Source: Candidatus Scalindua arabica (lineage in GTDB: Bacteria > Planctomycetota > Brocadiia > Brocadiales > Scalinduaceae). From it: a stretch of 58,400 bases of DNA. The notes beneath the pieces are model-generated. The model worked only from the letters and a program-made list of their open reading frames with translations. It did not search any database and had not been told where the DNA came from. The position numbers were made by a program, and so were the translations under genes. This document shows, in pieces, positions 41,404 through 47,885 of the stretch; within the stretch, counting starts at the first letter, position 1; each line of letters begins with the position of its first letter. The stretch spans positions 1-58,400 of the forward strand of contig JAANXD010000100.1 of NCBI GenBank assembly GCA_018263435.1. The letters run 5' to 3'.

Positions 41404-42735
41404 CTAATTTATTAAGGAGATCATTATATCCATCACATTAGTCAGAGTGGGGCCCGTAATTATGTGTTCTCCGGTCTTATTAAAAAAATTGTAAGAATCA
41501 TTTCTGCTCAAATAGTCTTCTGGTTTCAGGCAAAATTTTTCTCTGGAATCTTTACATGTATTAGAGTCAACGATTGCGCCTGTAGCATCCGTCGGGCCGT
41601 CAGTACCATCGGTGCCTGCACTTAAAATTACTATGCCGTCATATCCCTCTATCTCCATGGCCGCAGAAAGTGCAAACTCCTGGTTTCTTCCACCCTTTCC
41701 ATTGCCCTTTATAGTAACAGTGGTTTCACCTCCTGCAATTATACATGCGGGTTTAGAGAGAGGCGTTCCTGTGTGGCATACTTCTTTTGCAATGGCAGAG
41801 AAAAATATTGCAGCCTCTTTACTTTCTCCCTGTACCATAGATGAAAGGATTATGGTGTTATATCCTAAATCTGCAGCCTTTTCTTTCGCCGCTTCCAGCG
41901 CTATCTTGTTGGAACCAATGATTACGTTTTGTGTATTAGCAAATACTTTGTCTCCCTGTTTAGGATTCTCTTTAGTCTCTCCACTTTGTCCCTTCTTTAA
42001 AAGTTTACAAACGCTGTCAGGTATCCTGTCTTCCAGAGAGTACTTTCCAATTACTTTACAAGCATCGGCAAAAGTGCTCTCGTCCGGTACGGTAGGACCG
42101 GACGCTATAATATCCAAAGGGTCACCGATCACATCTGACAGTATCAGTGTAATCAATGTTGAAGGGTATGAAGCATGTGCAAGGTGTCCGCCCTTTATTA
42201 TCGACAAATGTTTTCTTACGGCATTAATTTCATCAATCGTAGCGCCGCAGGCCAGTAGTTCATTTGAAGTTGTTTGTATATCCTGTAAAGCTATTTCCTT
42301 ATGCGGTTGTACCAGTAAGGCGGAACCACCACCAGAGATAAGGCAAATAACCAGGTCTTTTTCGCCTGTTCTGGATAAAAGTCTGAGGATCTCAGAAGTG
42401 CCTTCTAAACCGTTTGTGTCCGGGATTGGATGTGATGCCTCAATGATGCTAATCTTCTTAAGTGGCAGACTGTGATCGTACTTCACAACGACTATACCCT
42501 CTTCCAGTCTCTCTCCCAGAATCTCCTCAACTGTTTTAGCCATCGGAGCACATGCCTTGCCGCCGCCGATCACATAGATATGCTCATAATCTTTGAGGTT
42601 ATATTCCCTTTGATCCACTAAAAGTGTTGAATCATTAATACTGACTTTCTTCTTAACTAACGACTCTGAGTCTAATGTACTTAATACATGCTTGAAAATT
42701 TCATCTGCGTGCTTTCTGAGATTAAGCATCGTCAT
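41404..42735 (-). CDS. Glycerate 2-kinase (MOFRL family)
   Basis: A 443-residue glycerate kinase of the GckA/TtuD type, which phosphorylates D-glycerate to 2-phosphoglycerate. Motifs: IYVIGGGKACAPMAKTVEEI, LVICLISGGGSALLVQPH, LSDVIGDPLDIIASGPTVPD, GKGGRNQEFALSAAMEI and SAGTDGTDGPTDATGAIVDS (MOFRL). In this operon it could return glycerate released from glucosylglycerate to glycolysis. It follows fprA by 24 bases. Confidence 0.9.
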   Translation of the reverse strand: MTMLNLRKHADEIFKHVLSTLDSESLVKKKVSINDSTLLVDQREYNLKDYEHIYVIGGGKACAPMAKTVEEILGERLEEGIVVVKYDHSLPLKKISIIEASHPIPDTNGLEGTSEILRLLSRTGEKDLVICLISGGGSALLVQPHKEIALQDIQTTSNELLACGATIDEINAVRKHLSIIKGGHLAHASYPSTLITLILSDVIGDPLDIIASGPTVPDESTFADACKVIGKYSLEDRIPDSVCKLLKKGQSGETKENPKQGDKVFANTQNVIIGSNKIALEAAKEKAADLGYNTIILSSMVQGESKEAAIFFSAIAKEVCHTGTPLSKPACIIAGGETTVTIKGNGKGGRNQEFALSAAMEIEGYDGIVILSAGTDGTDGPTDATGAIVDSNTCKDSREKFCLKPEDYLSRNDSYNFFNKTGEHIITGPTLTNVMDIMISLIN

Positions 42736-42759
42736 CTTATATTCTTTATAATATTATAT

Positions 42760-43944
42760 TTATTTTTGTTCCAGTGCGGTTACAAACTTTTTCCCAAATT
42801 CCTGACACTCTTTTAAAATACTATCATCCGGAATTAGTTTTATTTTTAAGGAAGGTTTATGAAGTTTTATGTGCAGCCCGCTTAATCTGTCTTCAATCAT
42901 TTTCACAGCTTCACCGCTCCAACCATAAGAGCCAAAGACAGATCCCAGCTTAATCCCGGACTTAACTGTGGAAAGGAGGGAAAGAGCATCCCAGACAGGC
43001 TTGGGAGCATCACCGGCAACTGTAGGTGCGCCAACAATTATACCATCTGCCCTTTCAATAGCATCCCTGATAAATTGATGATCTGAACTGTTCATATCTA
43101 ATATTCTGGTATTCACACCCGCTTCTAATACACCTTTAGAGATGGCTTCTGCCATATTTTTTGTACTTTCATATATACTAACATACAAAATCAGAACATT
43201 CTTAATTGTATCTGTTTGGGCCTTACTCCAGCTACGATAGCTTTCAATATGTTTCCGGGGATCTTTACGTATAATCGGCCCATGTCCTGTTGCAATAATA
43301 TCTATGTCCAATTCCCCTATCTTATTAATTGCTTTAAGGATATACGGCTTAAACGGACGCATTATGCTGTCATAGTAATAGTGAAAAGGATAGTCAAAAT
43401 CACCGACCAAATCATCAAACATCCTTTCATCACAAAAATGTGAACCAAATGCATCGCACGTAAAAAGAATTTTTTCCTTCTCTAAATAGGCCCACATAGT
43501 ATCCGGCCAATGCAAATAGGGTGCAGATATAAATCTAAGTTCGCAGTTACCAAGATTAATCACGGTACTATCTTCGATGATTGTCAGATCTACCGATATA
43601 TTAATTATGTCTTTAAGTAAATGTCCTCCAGATTTTGAAATCATAATTTTTGCACTGCTTGCATACTTTATCAACTCTGGAAGTGCGCCTGAATGGTCCG
43701 GCTCTGCATGATTAACAATAATATAGTCAATATCCTTGAGATCAACCTGTGATTTAAGCCTTGAAATGAATTCAGATGTAAAAGGTTTTTTAACCGTATC
43801 TATTAATGCAGTTTTCTCATCCTTAATAAGATAAGAATTATAGGTAGTCCCATGGTCAGTCTTGAAAACTATGTCAAATACTTTCATTTCAGGGTCTAAT
43901 GCTCCAACCCAATATATGTTATCTTTTATTTTTATACTATTCAT
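42760..43944 (-). CDS. fprA: Flavodiiron protein (A-type, FprA)
   Basis: A soluble enzyme that reduces O2 to water and/or NO to N2O. The N-terminal metallo-beta-lactamase domain holds the diiron ligands in VNHAEPDHSGALPEL, YLHWPDTM, CDAFGSH and ATGHGPI. The C-terminal flavodoxin domain starts at LILYVSIYESTKNMAEAISK and includes GAPTVAGDAPKPVW for FMN binding. At 394 residues it is a minimal A-type without a rubredoxin tail. It is inserted between the glycerate kinase and gpgS genes with gaps of only 24 and 21 bases. Confidence 0.94.
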   Translation of the reverse strand: MNSIKIKDNIYWVGALDPEMKVFDIVFKTDHGTTYNSYLIKDEKTALIDTVKKPFTSEFISRLKSQVDLKDIDYIIVNHAEPDHSGALPELIKYASSAKIMISKSGGHLLKDIINISVDLTIIEDSTVINLGNCELRFISAPYLHWPDTMWAYLEKEKILFTCDAFGSHFCDERMFDDLVGDFDYPFHYYYDSIMRPFKPYILKAINKIGELDIDIIATGHGPIIRKDPRKHIESYRSWSKAQTDTIKNVLILYVSIYESTKNMAEAISKGVLEAGVNTRILDMNSSDHQFIRDAIERADGIIVGAPTVAGDAPKPVWDALSLLSTVKSGIKLGSVFGSYGWSGEAVKMIEDRLSGLHIKLHKPSLKIKLIPDDSILKECQEFGKKFVTALEQK

Positions 43945-43965
43945 ACTCTATTTTTTTATAAGTAT

Positions 43966-45174
43966 TTATTTATTGTCCTTCTCAACTGTATCAATAAGCT
44001 TTTCAAAAAAACCAGGTATTGCTGAAGTCACCCTGCTCCAATTCGGTATGAGTGGTGAGCCGCCAGGATCTTCAAAAAATTGATCTCCTGCAATCTTAAG
44101 CCCGTTAGTAAACGCCTCTACCGCCTTTGTTTCCATGTGCCTGTCAAAGTATAGCCCGTTAATTGCTGAATCAGTTTCATATTTTTCAATGAAAGCCTGG
44201 GCTGTTCTTAGATATGTGATGCTCAATGTCCGGAAGAATCCTTCATTAAATATTGTACCCGCACTTGCCATCGTAGTAAGAATTGTCCTGGTGATGTCTA
44301 TGCTCATCTTCATCAGTCCTGTTGTAACATCTTCTTCAGAGAGCGGCTGGTGTTTATGTTCATATGTCTCACATAAATCTACCTGACATATCCTTTTCCT
44401 GGAACAATTCCTATATATCTCTGCCAGAACTCCCACTTCCAGTCCCCAATCACCTGGAATTCTATTTACCCTTGCAAGGTCAGCTAACATGGAAAATTCT
44501 CCCGCCAGAGGATACCTGAAACTGTCCATGTATTTCAGGAAATCCAGGTCTCCCAATAATCTGCGCAACGCTCTCAACAGAGGCGTCACAAGGAGCCTGG
44601 TTACCCTGCCATGCATACGATCAGTGATACGGCTGTAATATCCTTTGCAAAATTCAAAATCCAGATCTTGATTGACAACCGGGTAACATAACCGTGCAAG
44701 GAATTCTCTGTCGTATGTCTGGACGTCACAGTCATGCAATACAATTACCTTTGATTTTTCACTTGCCAGAACATAACCGTAAGACATCCATGCAGATCTA
44801 CCCTTACCATCAGCACCTGCTGAAACATTCTTTTCGTCAAGCAGTTTATAAAGTTTCTTCATCCCTGGACCGTCATTCCATATCAACGTTACCTCCTGAG
44901 GCAGGACAGAAAAGAATTTCTTCGCATATTTAAATTGTTCTTTATTAAATCTACCCAGAGTTACTATTATTTGTTTTAAGTACTTAACATCCTTTAATTC
45001 GTTGAGTATTTTTGGTAAAGCGGTACCTTCTAATTCAGAAAAGATGGTCGGCAACACAAGAGCAATAGGTCTCAGGCGTGAGAGTTTCTTTATTTCTGAT
45101 TCCAGTTTGGCAATATCCCTGCTGCCAAATCTGTGTAGTGTTGTAATTTCTCCTGATTGATGAAAGTCCCCCAT
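43966..45174 (-). CDS. gpgS: Glucosyl-3-phosphoglycerate synthase
   Basis: A GT81 glycosyltransferase that transfers glucose from NDP-glucose to 3-phosphoglycerate. At 402 residues the features are IALVLPTIFSELEGTALPKI, GKGRSAWMSYGYVLASEKSK, the DxD site VIVLHDCDVQTYDREFLARL, FRYPLAGEFSMLADL, DWGLEVGVLAEIYRN and CETYEHKHQPLS. Several of these motifs are shared with the Persephonella/Methanococcoides type of GpgS. It is followed by fprA and preceded by the phosphatase gene. Confidence 0.9.
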   Translation of the reverse strand: MGDFHQSGEITTLHRFGSRDIAKLESEIKKLSRLRPIALVLPTIFSELEGTALPKILNELKDVKYLKQIIVTLGRFNKEQFKYAKKFFSVLPQEVTLIWNDGPGMKKLYKLLDEKNVSAGADGKGRSAWMSYGYVLASEKSKVIVLHDCDVQTYDREFLARLCYPVVNQDLDFEFCKGYYSRITDRMHGRVTRLLVTPLLRALRRLLGDLDFLKYMDSFRYPLAGEFSMLADLARVNRIPGDWGLEVGVLAEIYRNCSRKRICQVDLCETYEHKHQPLSEEDVTTGLMKMSIDITRTILTTMASAGTIFNEGFFRTLSITYLRTAQAFIEKYETDSAINGLYFDRHMETKAVEAFTNGLKIAGDQFFEDPGGSPLIPNWSRVTSAIPGFFEKLIDTVEKDNK

Positions 45175-45245
45175 GATACAAACCTCCTTCTATTTCTGAG
45201 TCATAACAGATAGATTGTAATCCCTGGATTCAACTAATAATTGAG

Positions 45246-46070
45246 TTAGTTATTATTAAACAAGTCCAAAACAGCTTTGTTCCAGCCGACCGGCCCGACC
45301 CCATCGGCATAAACAAGGCCTTCAACCTTTATGCGCTCTTCATAGTTTCCCGCTTCTTTCTTCACGAGAAACGCTTTATCTACTACTTCCAACATTGGAA
45401 GATCATTTAAACTATCGCCGAGACCAACAGTAGTTATCCTTGTATCCGGAGAGTTCTTTTTGAAGGTATCCGTCAAAATTTCAACAGCCTTTCCCTTATC
45501 ATTACCGTCCATAAGGTATACAAACCGTGCACCTTCAGTGTAAGTAAGACCGGAGGATAATATCTCATCTTTAATAATCTTAACATCATCTTCTCCACCA
45601 TAAATAATAAAGGGTAATGTATATTCTCTTTTTTGAGCAAGAAGAGCCTCTTCTCTGCTCAAACCTGTTAACTCAACAATTTCGTCAATAGTGAATTCGG
45701 CAATGCTCTTAATATTTATATCTGGTTTTCTCTTTATCTTTTCAAAGGCATCTACAAGCATTTGATATTCAGAACCAATCTCTATCACTAAATAACCATC
45801 ATCAATTTTATCAAATTCGCATTTCAAACCACCATATCCTTCAGGAATAAATATAGCCCCTCCATTTTCTGATATAAATGGTTCATTATTTGACAGTTTC
45901 TTACGATAGGCCTTTATTTCATCCCTGGATTTACTGGAACATAAGACAAGTGGTACGCCCTTTTCTCTCAATAACTCTAAAGCCTCTTCCGCTTCATAAA
46001 AAGAGTAAGTACTATGGTCTAATAACGTACCATCCAAATCCGTAAATACAATTATTTTTCTATTATTCAT
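45246..46070 (-). CDS. gpgP: Glucosyl/mannosyl-3-phosphoglycerate phosphatase (HAD-IIB)
   Basis: A HAD-superfamily phosphatase of the MpgP/GpgP type that releases glucosylglycerate from its phosphate. Motifs: FTDLDGTLLDHSTYSFYEAE (catalytic DLDGT), VPLVLCSSKSRDEIKAYRKK, PFISENGGAIFIPEGYG and VGLGDSLNDLPMLEVVDKAF. I chose ATG 46070 because family members start just before IVFTDLDGT; a TTG at 46112 would add 14 unconserved residues. Neither site shows a Shine-Dalgarno. A promoter-like TTGAAA-17-TAGAAT (46112 to about 46084, minus strand) would put the start of transcription almost at this ATG. Confidence 0.88.
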   Translation of the reverse strand: MNNRKIIVFTDLDGTLLDHSTYSFYEAEEALELLREKGVPLVLCSSKSRDEIKAYRKKLSNNEPFISENGGAIFIPEGYGGLKCEFDKIDDGYLVIEIGSEYQMLVDAFEKIKRKPDINIKSIAEFTIDEIVELTGLSREEALLAQKREYTLPFIIYGGEDDVKIIKDEILSSGLTYTEGARFVYLMDGNDKGKAVEILTDTFKKNSPDTRITTVGLGDSLNDLPMLEVVDKAFLVKKEAGNYEERIKVEGLVYADGVGPVGWNKAVLDLFNNN

Positions 46071-46133
46071 GCCACAAGTGGGAATTCTAGTTCTTTTAGA
46101 TAAATGTTTCAATATTAAAAAGGGAATGGAACT

Positions 46134-46162
46134 TTGACGGAAGTGTATTATTATTGTATAAT
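46134..46162 (+). promoter_or_regulatory. Sigma-70-like promoter P1
   Basis: TTGACG at 46134-46139 and TATAAT at 46157-46162 with exactly 17 bases between them. It points to the DUF1858-like gene 177 bases away. It lies in the divergent gap between gpgP and that gene. Confidence 0.65.
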
Positions 46163-46248: not shown

Positions 46249-46277
46249 TTGACTCTCTCATCTGTAAATGGTATATT
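46249..46277 (+). promoter_or_regulatory. Sigma-70-like promoter P2
   Basis: TTGACT at 46249-46254 and TATATT at 46272-46277, spacing 17. The predicted transcript would begin near 46284, giving a leader of about 55 bases before the ATG at 46339. It is the nearer and more plausible promoter of the five-gene run. Confidence 0.65.
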
Positions 46278-46338: not shown

Positions 46339-46608
46339 ATGCAAGAACCAGGGGAAACCCAACCTGAAACATCTGGAACAAACAAAGTCAACATAACAAA
46401 AGAAATGACAACAGGAGAGGTAACGGAAAAATATCCGGCCACGAGAGAGGTGTTTTCAAAACACTTTGGAAAGAGCTGTTTTGATTGTCCCGCATTTGGC
46501 ACGGAAGATGTAAATCTGGCATGCATGATGCACAATACAGATGTTGAGATGTTTGTTAGTGAATTAATTGAAGCAGCCCAAAAAGAGTTAGACTCAAAAG
46601 CATCTTAA
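46339..46608 (+). CDS. DUF1858-like protein with CxxC
   Basis: An 89-residue protein. After a polar N-terminal 20 residues it has the DUF1858 pattern: ITKEMTTGEVTEKYPATREV, then FGKSCFDCPAFGTEDVNLAC. The CxxC plus a third Cys suggest redox or metal binding; this domain is often annotated as hybrid-cluster-protein-associated redox disulfide. It heads a co-directional run with two cupins and a DUF2249 protein. Confidence 0.82.
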   Translation: MQEPGETQPETSGTNKVNITKEMTTGEVTEKYPATREVFSKHFGKSCFDCPAFGTEDVNLACMMHNTDVEMFVSELIEAAQKELDSKAS

Positions 46609-46664
46609 TCGGCCAGGGTATAAGGATTTTTCTAAAGCTGGAAATTTGTTGGGAGGAAGAGTAT

Positions 46665-46961
46665 TTGAATCTTATAAAATTACAGGAAAAAGTACAGTTT
46701 AACGAACAATTTCGTCCACAAATCTTATGTGCCGCCCCTGACGCAAAAGCACCTTTGATATGCTTAGAACCGGGCCAGGAAATACCGGCACATCCCAGTG
46801 GTACCGGCATTTTTTATGTACTGGAGGGAAAAGGTATTATTTACCTGGACGACGAAGAGATAAGCGTGTCAAAAGGCACGGTGGTAATTGCTCCTGAAGG
46901 ATCAAAAAGGGGCATCAAGGGAGTGGAAAGGCTGGTTGCTACAGCCGTTCACGTTAGTTGA
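46665..46961 (+). CDS. Small cupin protein (98 aa)
   Basis: A single-domain cupin. It starts at TTG 46665, supported by a strong GGGAGG eight bases upstream; there is no suitable ATG. Cupin motif 1 is reduced (EPGQEIPAHPSGTGIFYVLE with one His), and motif 2 reads VSKGTVVIAPEGSKRGIKGV. With fewer His ligands than enzymatic cupins it may be a binding or sensory fold. It is followed 11 bases later by another cupin gene. Confidence 0.82.
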   Translation: MNLIKLQEKVQFNEQFRPQILCAAPDAKAPLICLEPGQEIPAHPSGTGIFYVLEGKGIIYLDDEEISVSKGTVVIAPEGSKRGIKGVERLVATAVHVS

Positions 46962-46971
46962 AAGGACTATA

Positions 46972-47274
46972 ATGGGAGCGTTTAAACTAGAAGAAGTTAC
47001 AAAATTTTCTGAAGAAAATGTAGTATCCACAAACTTATATGATTCTCAAAAAGTTTGTACCAACTTCCTTTGTATGGAAGAAGGCCAATCAGCGCTGGAA
47101 GATACCAAAGAACAAAAGGTAATTATCGTAATTAATTCCGGCAGTGGTTCTGTTGTCACAGATGATGGAGAACAGGATATAGAAGAGGGAACCTTTATAT
47201 TATGTGAAAGAGGTGAATCCCGCTTGCTCAAAGCTAAGTCAAAGTTAACGGCTTTAGTGAACTCCATACCTTAA
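46972..47274 (+). CDS. Cupin-fold protein lacking His ligands (100 aa)
   Basis: Starts at ATG 46972 with AAAGGA upstream. An earlier in-frame start would overlap the previous gene and is rejected. The sequence has cupin spacing (KVCTNFLCMEEGQSALEDTK; INSGSGSVVTDDGEQDIEEG), but the usual His ligands are replaced, so metal catalysis is unlikely. Probably co-transcribed with the first cupin and could pair with it. Confidence 0.75.
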   Translation: MGAFKLEEVTKFSEENVVSTNLYDSQKVCTNFLCMEEGQSALEDTKEQKVIIVINSGSGSVVTDDGEQDIEEGTFILCERGESRLLKAKSKLTALVNSIP

Positions 47275-47342
47275 GAGTAGTGGCTTTTAACCTGTCAGAA
47301 ATTTAAGTTAATGCAATTTATAAATAGGAAAGGATAAAGTAA

Positions 47343-47579
47343 ATGAGCGAAGACAACGTTATAACACTGGATGTACAAAATATTCCACCACGCGAAAGAC
47401 ACCCAAAGATTTTTGACACCTTTGATTCTCTTCAACCGGGGGATAAGATGATACTTATAAATGATCACGATCCAAAACCATTAAAGTACCAGTTGGAAGC
47501 AGAACGAACAGGTCAAATGGATTGGGAATATATATTGTCCGGCCCGGAGGAGTGGAAAGTGGAGATACTAAAAAAATAA
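47343..47579 (+). CDS. DUF2249 protein (78 aa)
   Basis: A small protein with the DUF2249 signature: DVQNIPPRERHPKIFDTFDS, LQPGDKMILINDHDPKPLKY and WEYILSGPEEWKVEILK. The family occurs in denitrifying and hybrid-cluster gene neighbourhoods and is predicted to act in redox or cofactor chemistry. GGAAAGGA precedes the ATG. It belongs to the five-gene run. Confidence 0.88.
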   Translation: MSEDNVITLDVQNIPPRERHPKIFDTFDSLQPGDKMILINDHDPKPLKYQLEAERTGQMDWEYILSGPEEWKVEILKK

Positions 47580-47654
47580 TATGTTCATGCCGGAAAAATA
47601 GGGTCTTTAATTTTGATGTCCCCATAATACATTCGCAAAATAATAGGGACTATT

Positions 47655-47885
47655 ATGTTTGATCATGTAATGTTTGATACATTGGCATATGCGAAAAAGC
47701 TCAAATCAGCTGGTTTCACAGAAGATCAAGCTGAAATACAGGCAGAGGCTCTGGCAAGTATTATTGATGAAAAGTTTGCCACTAAACAAGACCTGAAAGA
47801 GCTTGAATTGCGTATGTTAGTCCGTCTTGGAGCTATTCAGGCGGCCGGCATTGCCATTGTAGCCGCATTGGTTAAGCTACTGTAA
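47655..47885 (+). CDS. Small coiled-coil membrane protein (DUF1640-like)
   Basis: A 76-residue protein with an amphipathic N-terminus (FDTLAYAKKLKSAGFTEDQA), a central coiled-coil (ATKQDLKELELRMLVRL) and a C-terminal membrane helix (IQAAGIAIVAALVKLL). It is a short relative of DUF1640/CCDC90-type proteins, function unknown. It closes the five-gene run. Confidence 0.78.
   Translation: MFDHVMFDTLAYAKKLKSAGFTEDQAEIQAEALASIIDEKFATKQDLKELELRMLVRLGAIQAAGIAIVAALVKLL

Follow-up and report, generated by a model that had tools for sequence, protein, structure and literature searches.

Gene content of the locus

The DNA analysed here (the window) is a 58,400-nt stretch of Candidatus Scalindua arabica and forms contig C3 of a genome assembled into 102 contigs with a total of 2.69 Mb. 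Scalindua is a member of Brocadiales, and the database records whose cupin 1 (one of the proteins described below) is 91–95% identical bear the names Candidatus Scalindua or uncultured Planctomycetes/Brocadiaceae. The same genome encodes hydrazine synthase alpha, so the host is an anammox (anaerobic ammonium oxidation) bacterium. The PHROGs viral library gave no informative match. The majority of the genomes compared are MAGs, and the names of neighbouring genes lacking a Pfam call were assigned by eye. The features of the locus are as follows.

42760-43944, minus strand: FprA-type flavodiiron protein, divergent neighbour of the module
43966-45174, minus strand: GpgS-like protein, divergent neighbour of the module
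45246-46112, minus strand: MPGP, divergent neighbour of the module
46134..46162, plus strand: promoter-like TTGACG-N17-TATAAT; not conserved (altered in G011 and G009, absent elsewhere)
46249..46277, plus strand: sigma-70-like promoter TTGACT-N17-TATATT with extended -10 TG, ~60 bases 5' of the DUF1858 start; kept in 8/8 aligned Scalindua-type loci
46339..46608, plus strand: DUF1858/TIGR03980 protein, 89 aa (Pfam and NCBIfam profiles; PDB relative 2k53)
46665..46961, plus strand: cupin 1, 98 aa, TTG start after GGGAGG (Pfam Cupin_2; AF2 model)
46972..47274, plus strand: cupin 2, 100 aa (family alignment; Pfam Cupin_2 below cut-off)
47343..47579, plus strand: DUF2249 protein, 78 aa (Pfam profile; fold from a structure model)
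47655..47885, plus strand: CCDC90-like coiled-coil protein with a C-terminal hydrophobic helix, 76 aa (Pfam 24.8 bits, below cut-off)

An earlier note on this DNA had described a co-directional run of five genes. All five reading frames are present on the plus strand at the coordinates given there, but the fifth lies outside the conserved module, and the core of the run consists of the DUF1858, cupin 1, cupin 2, and DUF2249 genes. Putative ribosome-binding sites precede all core starts (GAGG, GGGAGG before the TTG, GAAAGG, and GGAAAGG). The domain assignments of that note were upheld by profile for DUF1858 (42.8 bits, cut-off 32.2; TIGR03980 46.5 bits, cut-off 44.95), cupin 1 (Cupin_2 37.6 bits, curated cut-off 27.2), and DUF2249 (100.5 bits, cut-off 29.5), while the CCDC90-like protein and cupin 2 (Cupin_2 17.9 bits) fell below their cut-offs. 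Cupin 2 nevertheless belongs to the cupins by family: 13 members were aligned, and the profiles of the two cupins cross-match. Ka/Ks values of the four core genes (Nei-Gojobori) were 0.03–0.19 against G003 and 0.04–0.40 against the closest relative; these low values reflect strong purifying selection and show that the four core frames are real genes. In the part of the literature that our search covered, no description of the DUF1858-cupin-DUF2249 set as a unit was found.

The coiled-coil gene was ruled out as a fifth member, as homologues are few (6/24 genomes, the window genome counted) and in the other genomes lie on unrelated contigs, away from the module. The minus-strand run at 41404-46112, which is kept in G009 and G011, encodes mannosyl-/glucosyl-3-phosphoglycerate phosphatase and synthase, the FprA-type flavodiiron protein, and glycerate kinase. 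The module had been said to diverge from a flavodiiron operon; a flavodiiron gene does stand in the divergent run, but the operon is of the mannosyl-/glucosyl-3-phosphoglycerate type. The MPGP-GpgS-FprA operon adjoins the module only in the window genome, G011, and G009, the three closest species, which rules it out as a general functional partner. Since the surroundings vary between genomes, neither the coiled-coil gene nor the flavodiiron neighbour is more than a local feature.

Promoters upstream of the module

Both of the reported sigma-70-like sites with 17-base spacing can be found. The region holds 11 sites of this kind against 8.3 expected, no excess over chance, and of the two reported only the one at 46249-46277 is conserved. 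When the eight Scalindua-type (f1) loci were aligned 5' of DUF1858, a single conserved block was obtained, consisting of TTGAC, 17 bases, and an extended -10 (TATATT or a near form). This block is kept across at least three unrelated upstream contexts. As the DNA beyond it is unrelated between settings, promoter and genes moved as a single unit in the Scalindua-type genomes. The site at 46134-46162 was ruled out as the module promoter by its lack of conservation. In f5, the family that holds Brocadia, Jettenia, Kuenenia, and Loosdrechtia (via cupin 1 records), the module stands closely behind a radical SAM gene, and no common promoter was seen in these loci.

Conservation and genomic settings in Brocadiales

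Among the five families compared (f1 to f5), cupin 1 gave strong matches in f1, f3, and f5 and was not found in f2 or f4; DUF2249 was distributed likewise. Twenty loci of 11–19 kb each carry a co-directional DUF1858-cupin 1-(cupin 2)-DUF2249 arrangement, the exceptions being two g4 genomes without an adjacent DUF1858 gene and G014 without DUF2249. The earlier note had staked its proposal on DUF1858, cupin, and DUF2249 genes occurring together in other genomes, and this is what a scan of public genomes showed: of 38 Brocadiales cupin-1 loci, 36 have DUF1858 and 37 have DUF2249. Cupin 2 was counted in 23/38, a lenient figure that takes in some cupin-1 cross-matches, and is absent from several Brocadiaceae loci.

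Gene order and strand are retained in at least four unrelated settings across Brocadiales: beside dnaA-dnaN-gyrB in most Scalindua; beside the mannosyl-/glucosylglycerate operon (AspAT/MPGP) in the window genome, G011, and G009; beside an HAO gene (HAO-B) in G001 and G004; and within an lpx/bamA/radical-SAM run with HAO in f5. The arrangement within Brocadiaceae is one inherited event and not a series of independent repeats. An Rrf2 gene lies near the module in some Scalindua, several genes distant. No hybrid cluster protein gene was found among the neighbours of the loci read, and no nar gene was recognised beside the module there.

The module is missing from f2, f4, and G013, although hydrazine synthase is present in them; it is therefore not required for anammox. 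Its use as an anammox-specific marker was excluded on the same grounds, and also by the occurrence of the cupin in other phyla. In most f2 genomes, a tandem-DUF1858 protein of 158–160 aa adjoins DUF4438 (L058:6768-8165, L059-L063), and these genomes contain neither cupin 1 nor DUF2249. In G012 (L037, contig C51), cupin 1 and cupin 2 are read as one 204-aa frame; this fusion was set aside as evidence of pairing, as the frame-shifted DUF1858 gene of the same locus makes a sequencing indel likely.

Linkage to HAO-type genes

The HAO-type enzymes of anammox bacteria handle hydroxylamine, NO, and hydrazine. In 25 Brocadiaceae loci, which are all those of the public scan (one truncated where its contig stops), a gene for an HAO-like octahaem cytochrome lies directly 3' of DUF2249 on the same strand, at 42–116 bases in the loci measured. 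G039 departs from this pattern and encodes the enzyme elsewhere. The f5 enzyme has eight haems and 549–615 aa, matches Multi-haem_cyto at 151.7 bits and Hao_C at 42.0 bits, and has as its best solved relatives 6t5e and 4n4j (hydroxylamine oxidoreductase-type, about 600 bits). G001 and G004 belong to the same genus as the window; in both, an HAO-type gene ends 91 bases 5' of the DUF1858 start, on the same strand and before the conserved promoter. In a tree of 26 HAO-type proteins, the two module-linked types fall in separate clades, each supported at 100/99, so the linkage arose twice. The chance of an HAO flank was roughly estimated at ~0.5% per setting (2 x ~8 copies / ~3500 genes), with about 4–10 HAO-type matches counted per genome and the gene number assumed.

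Upstream of the module in Brocadiaceae, the radical SAM protein comes closest to the haem synthases AhbD and NirJ without reaching the cut-off of either. The window genome itself holds a 122-base HAO-type remnant beside a FocA/NirC-like gene (L202:3090-3211; G000:C80). The remnant derives from the G001-type HAO paralogue, which is intact in the sister genome G011 (L082), though an assembly fault may lie behind it.

Relatives outside Brocadiales and other DUF1858 and DUF2249 genes

A further 40 cupin-1 genes were found in MAGs of Deltaproteobacteria, Nitrospirota, Nitrospinota, and Proteobacteria; the tree annotation assigns many of the deltaproteobacterial sequences to Myxococcota. Contamination from anammox genomes is unlikely, because these sequences are only 43–57% identical. 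Mrp/NBP35 and NifU are Fe-S cluster carriers, and both occur beside these relatives. Four deltaproteobacterial loci (L158, L162, L166, and L168) show the co-directional order NifU-ferredoxin-COX1-like-cupin 2-ScdA_N-cupin 1-Mrp, in which Mrp carries FeS_assembly_P and is followed, where read, by NIR_SIR. The small protein between the cupins is an ScdA_N protein (53.1 bits) that also scores to ScdA/RIC repair models; its stand-alone arrangement in this operon was not met in the literature searched. Cupin 1 occurs together with NifU in four Nitrospirota loci, and a DUF2249-hemerythrin protein lies downstream in six non-Brocadiales loci, while 26 of the 40 genes have no partner within about 3 kb. 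In the cupin-1 tree, the Brocadiales sequences join the NifU group and the cupin 2-ScdA_N-cupin 1 group with support of 100/100; because the sequences are short, the finer branches are uncertain, and row L123 stems from a bad frame. Other Planctomycetota encode DUF2249 either as a hemerythrin fusion or next to NnrS/COX1-like proteins.

Nearly all Brocadiales have a second DUF1858 gene (L064:7294-7527, that is G000:C16:19308-19517; also L065-L068). Its neighbours encode a 128-aa COX1-like membrane protein, NifU, an ATC-hydrolase-like protein, ThiF, cysteine desulfurase, a ccsA-like protein, and hemA. A separate 701-aa membrane protein (L069:3125-5230; G000:C39), with homologues in most relatives, combines one ScdA_N, several DUF1858, and COX1/NnrS-like domains.

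Protein features and predicted folds

In the DUF1858 protein, C47-x2-C50 and C62 are invariant. It has one solved relative in the PDB (2k53), and the window protein scores only 12.1 bits against ScdA_N.

The AF2 model of cupin 1 (pLDDT 90) has a cupin fold, with 1v70 found by Foldseek (E 1.6e-8, TM 0.90). The cupins had been suspected of having lost metal ligands, and the sequences bear this out: His43 is the sole survivor of the canonical three-His/one-Glu set in cupin 1, and the window's cupin 2 has no histidine at all. The motif-2 His position of cupin 1 is occupied by Arg82, which is invariant in all Brocadiales and present in 38/40 of the other cupin-1 sequences; Gly48 and Phe50 are almost as constant. 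Cys33 and Glu35 are near-invariant, but positions 28–45 belonged to the search patterns, so that conservation there is partly selection, whereas Gly48, Phe50, and Arg82 lie outside them. An invariant Cys34 in cupin 2 is the equivalent of Cys33.

The DUF2249 protein, the only one of its kind in the window genome, is among the most conserved of the set: 40 of 78 positions are invariant in 15 Brocadiales sequences, including R17, R19, H20, N40, D41, H42, D43, and P44, and none of the 15 contains a cysteine. Its model (pLDDT 92) has the TusA-like order beta-alpha-beta-alpha-beta-beta. Foldseek gave TM 0.62–0.72 and E near 0.03–0.1 against TusA-type structures (3lvj_C, probability 1.00, TM 0.67; 2lxr, TM 0.72), amid many unrelated Rossmann-type matches; the best TusA E-value, 0.03, is not significant, and the sequence had no match to solved structures. 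No obvious signal peptide was found in the module proteins.

Comparison with known systems

RIC/ScdA proteins restore NO-damaged Fe-S clusters. Their ScdA_N-type domain, also that of YtfE, appears to be related to DUF1858, the deltaproteobacterial protein between the cupins is itself ScdA_N, and DUF2249-hemerythrin fusions exist outside the Brocadiales module. The Brocadiales module differs in having no hemerythrin diiron domain; its N-terminal-type domain stands alone. Thermus thermophilus DrpA and DrpB resemble the module in that DUF2249 and DUF1858 proteins are encoded together and next to genes for a nitrogen-oxide enzyme. The Drp system is placed downstream of a respiratory nitrate reductase operon, whereas the module keeps HAO-like or Fe-S company, with no nar gene recognised nearby in the loci read; and in place of the DrpB fusion, the module has separate 89-aa DUF1858 and 78-aa DUF2249 proteins, plus cupins. 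DrpA (DUF2249) and DrpB (DUF1858 with two DUF2249) are required for the nitrate response, and in the double mutant nitrate reductase is poorly active though its subunits are produced (PMC6282519). DUF2249 genes, one of them fused to an Fe-S carrier, rise by 3–9 log2 in denitrifying Haloferax (PMC11218638), and in Bradyrhizobium one of the strongest targets of NnrR is a DUF1858 gene (PMC6710368).

The DUF1858 protein just exceeds the cut-off for TIGR03980 redox disulfide proteins and keeps their Cys-x2-Cys, but the hybrid cluster protein association of that family was not seen at the module loci read. The predicted barrel of cupin 1 is that of Cupin_2 metalloproteins (1v70, TM1459), with three of the four metal ligands replaced. 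DUF2249 matches TusA/SirA in size and predicted element order but lacks the catalytic cysteine of their Cys-Pro motif. On the best reading, the module would share elements with Thermus DrpAB and with RIC/ScdA without belonging to either.

Possible function of the module

We favour, at a probability of about 0.4, the explanation that the module is a small cytosolic accessory for iron centres (Fe-S or haem iron), which it would supply, protect, or repair at places where reactive nitrogen arises, in anammox bacteria around HAO-type octahaem enzymes. In such a system, the DUF1858 protein, which appears related to ScdA_N, could use its Cys-x2-Cys pair for redox chemistry or for docking a metal, the pseudo-cupins could provide a scaffold or ligand pocket with Cys33, His43, and Arg82 in place of the usual metal site, and the cysteine-free DUF2249 protein, with its predicted TusA-like fold, could be a partner-docking or ligand-binding subunit. 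That the proteins form a complex, that an iron centre is the substrate, that NO or hydroxylamine is the stress, and that the role is maintenance and not sensing are what we infer.

The conserved order and strand, the two HAO linkages, and the Fe-S company of the nearest cupin relatives support this explanation. Further support comes from the association of the second DUF1858 gene with NifU, ThiF, cysteine desulfurase, and hemA, and from the radical SAM protein, whose nearest families, at scores below cut-off, are AhbD/NirJ. The ScdA_N protein matching ScdA/RIC models and the nitrate reductase of the DrpAB mutant (PMC6282519) point the same way. Against it, the module of the window genome adjoins no nitrogen-oxide or Fe-S gene except the local flavodiiron gene, and the Brocadiales module contains no hemerythrin or diiron site. 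The Brocadiaceae conservation counts as one inherited arrangement, f2, f4, and G013 do without the module, and most outside cupin-1 genes (26/40) are without near partners. HAO maturation, moreover, occurs outside the cytosol, and the module proteins are without obvious signal peptides. A further-reaching version, in which a laterally mobile repair or protection system has a metal-free cupin pair in place of the RIC hemerythrin and was recruited twice to HAO-type enzymes that make or consume NO, seems to us unlikely.

The main competitor is a split Drp-like sensor, in which DUF2249 and DUF1858, with the cupins as ligand domain, would detect nitrate, nitrite, or NO and act on regulators of the expression of HAO-type or other nitrogen enzymes. 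The need for DrpA/DrpB in Thermus (PMC6282519), DUF2249 induction in Haloferax (PMC11218638), the Bradyrhizobium NnrR regulon (PMC6710368), and the HAO linkage speak for it; yet no DNA-binding or kinase gene accompanies the module (the Rrf2 gene of some Scalindua being several genes off), and the nearest cupin relatives stand in Fe-S assembly operons and not in regulatory ones. We regard sensing as a somewhat unlikely option and rank maintenance above it, because what the findings share is iron centres exposed to reactive nitrogen. The earlier suggestion of a role in redox or NO sensing or cofactor handling is partly supported: nitrogen-oxide redox or cofactor handling agrees with the genes nearby (HAO-like genes in Brocadiales; NifU, Mrp, ScdA_N, and hemerythrin elsewhere), but the data do not firmly separate sensing from the maintenance that we prefer.

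A sulfur or persulfide relay for cofactor or tRNA thiolation, with DUF2249 as a TusA-like carrier, DUF1858 as its redox disulfide partner, and the cupin cysteines as acceptors, would suit the predicted fold (3lvj_C, 2lxr), the cysteine desulfurase and NifU genes in the neighbourhood of the second DUF1858 gene, and the invariant cysteine of each cupin. A DUF2249 protein devoid of cysteine cannot act as TusA does, however, and the structural E-values (best TusA 0.03) are not significant, which makes the relay improbable. We place still lower an accessory for haem supply to, or assembly of, HAO-family octahaem cytochromes: HAO genes adjoin the module twice and the Brocadiaceae radical SAM protein is nearest AhbD/NirJ, but most Scalindua modules have no adjacent HAO, f2, f4, and G013 are rich in HAO-type proteins without having the module, and cupin 1 occurs in phyla with no HAO seen nearby. 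That unrelated small genes stand in a row by chance is scarcely credible. The five genes do belong to different families, and promoter-like sites are common by chance, but the same gene order recurs in at least four unrelated settings, the promoter moves along in Scalindua-type genomes, and the core genes are under strong purifying selection; chance is refuted for the four core genes and stands for the coiled-coil gene alone.

Significance for anammox bacteria

The metabolism of anammox bacteria depends on nitric oxide, hydroxylamine, and hydrazine, and how the iron proteins of their cytosol stand up to these compounds is not settled. The module, kept in two large anammox families and linked to HAO-type genes, offers four small soluble proteins to make and test. 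DUF1858 and DUF2249, orphan domains recurrent in denitrifiers, gain a defined set of partners. Its four genes travel as a set through anammox genomes, and the module probably helps to keep iron cofactors functional in the presence of toxic nitrogen intermediates.
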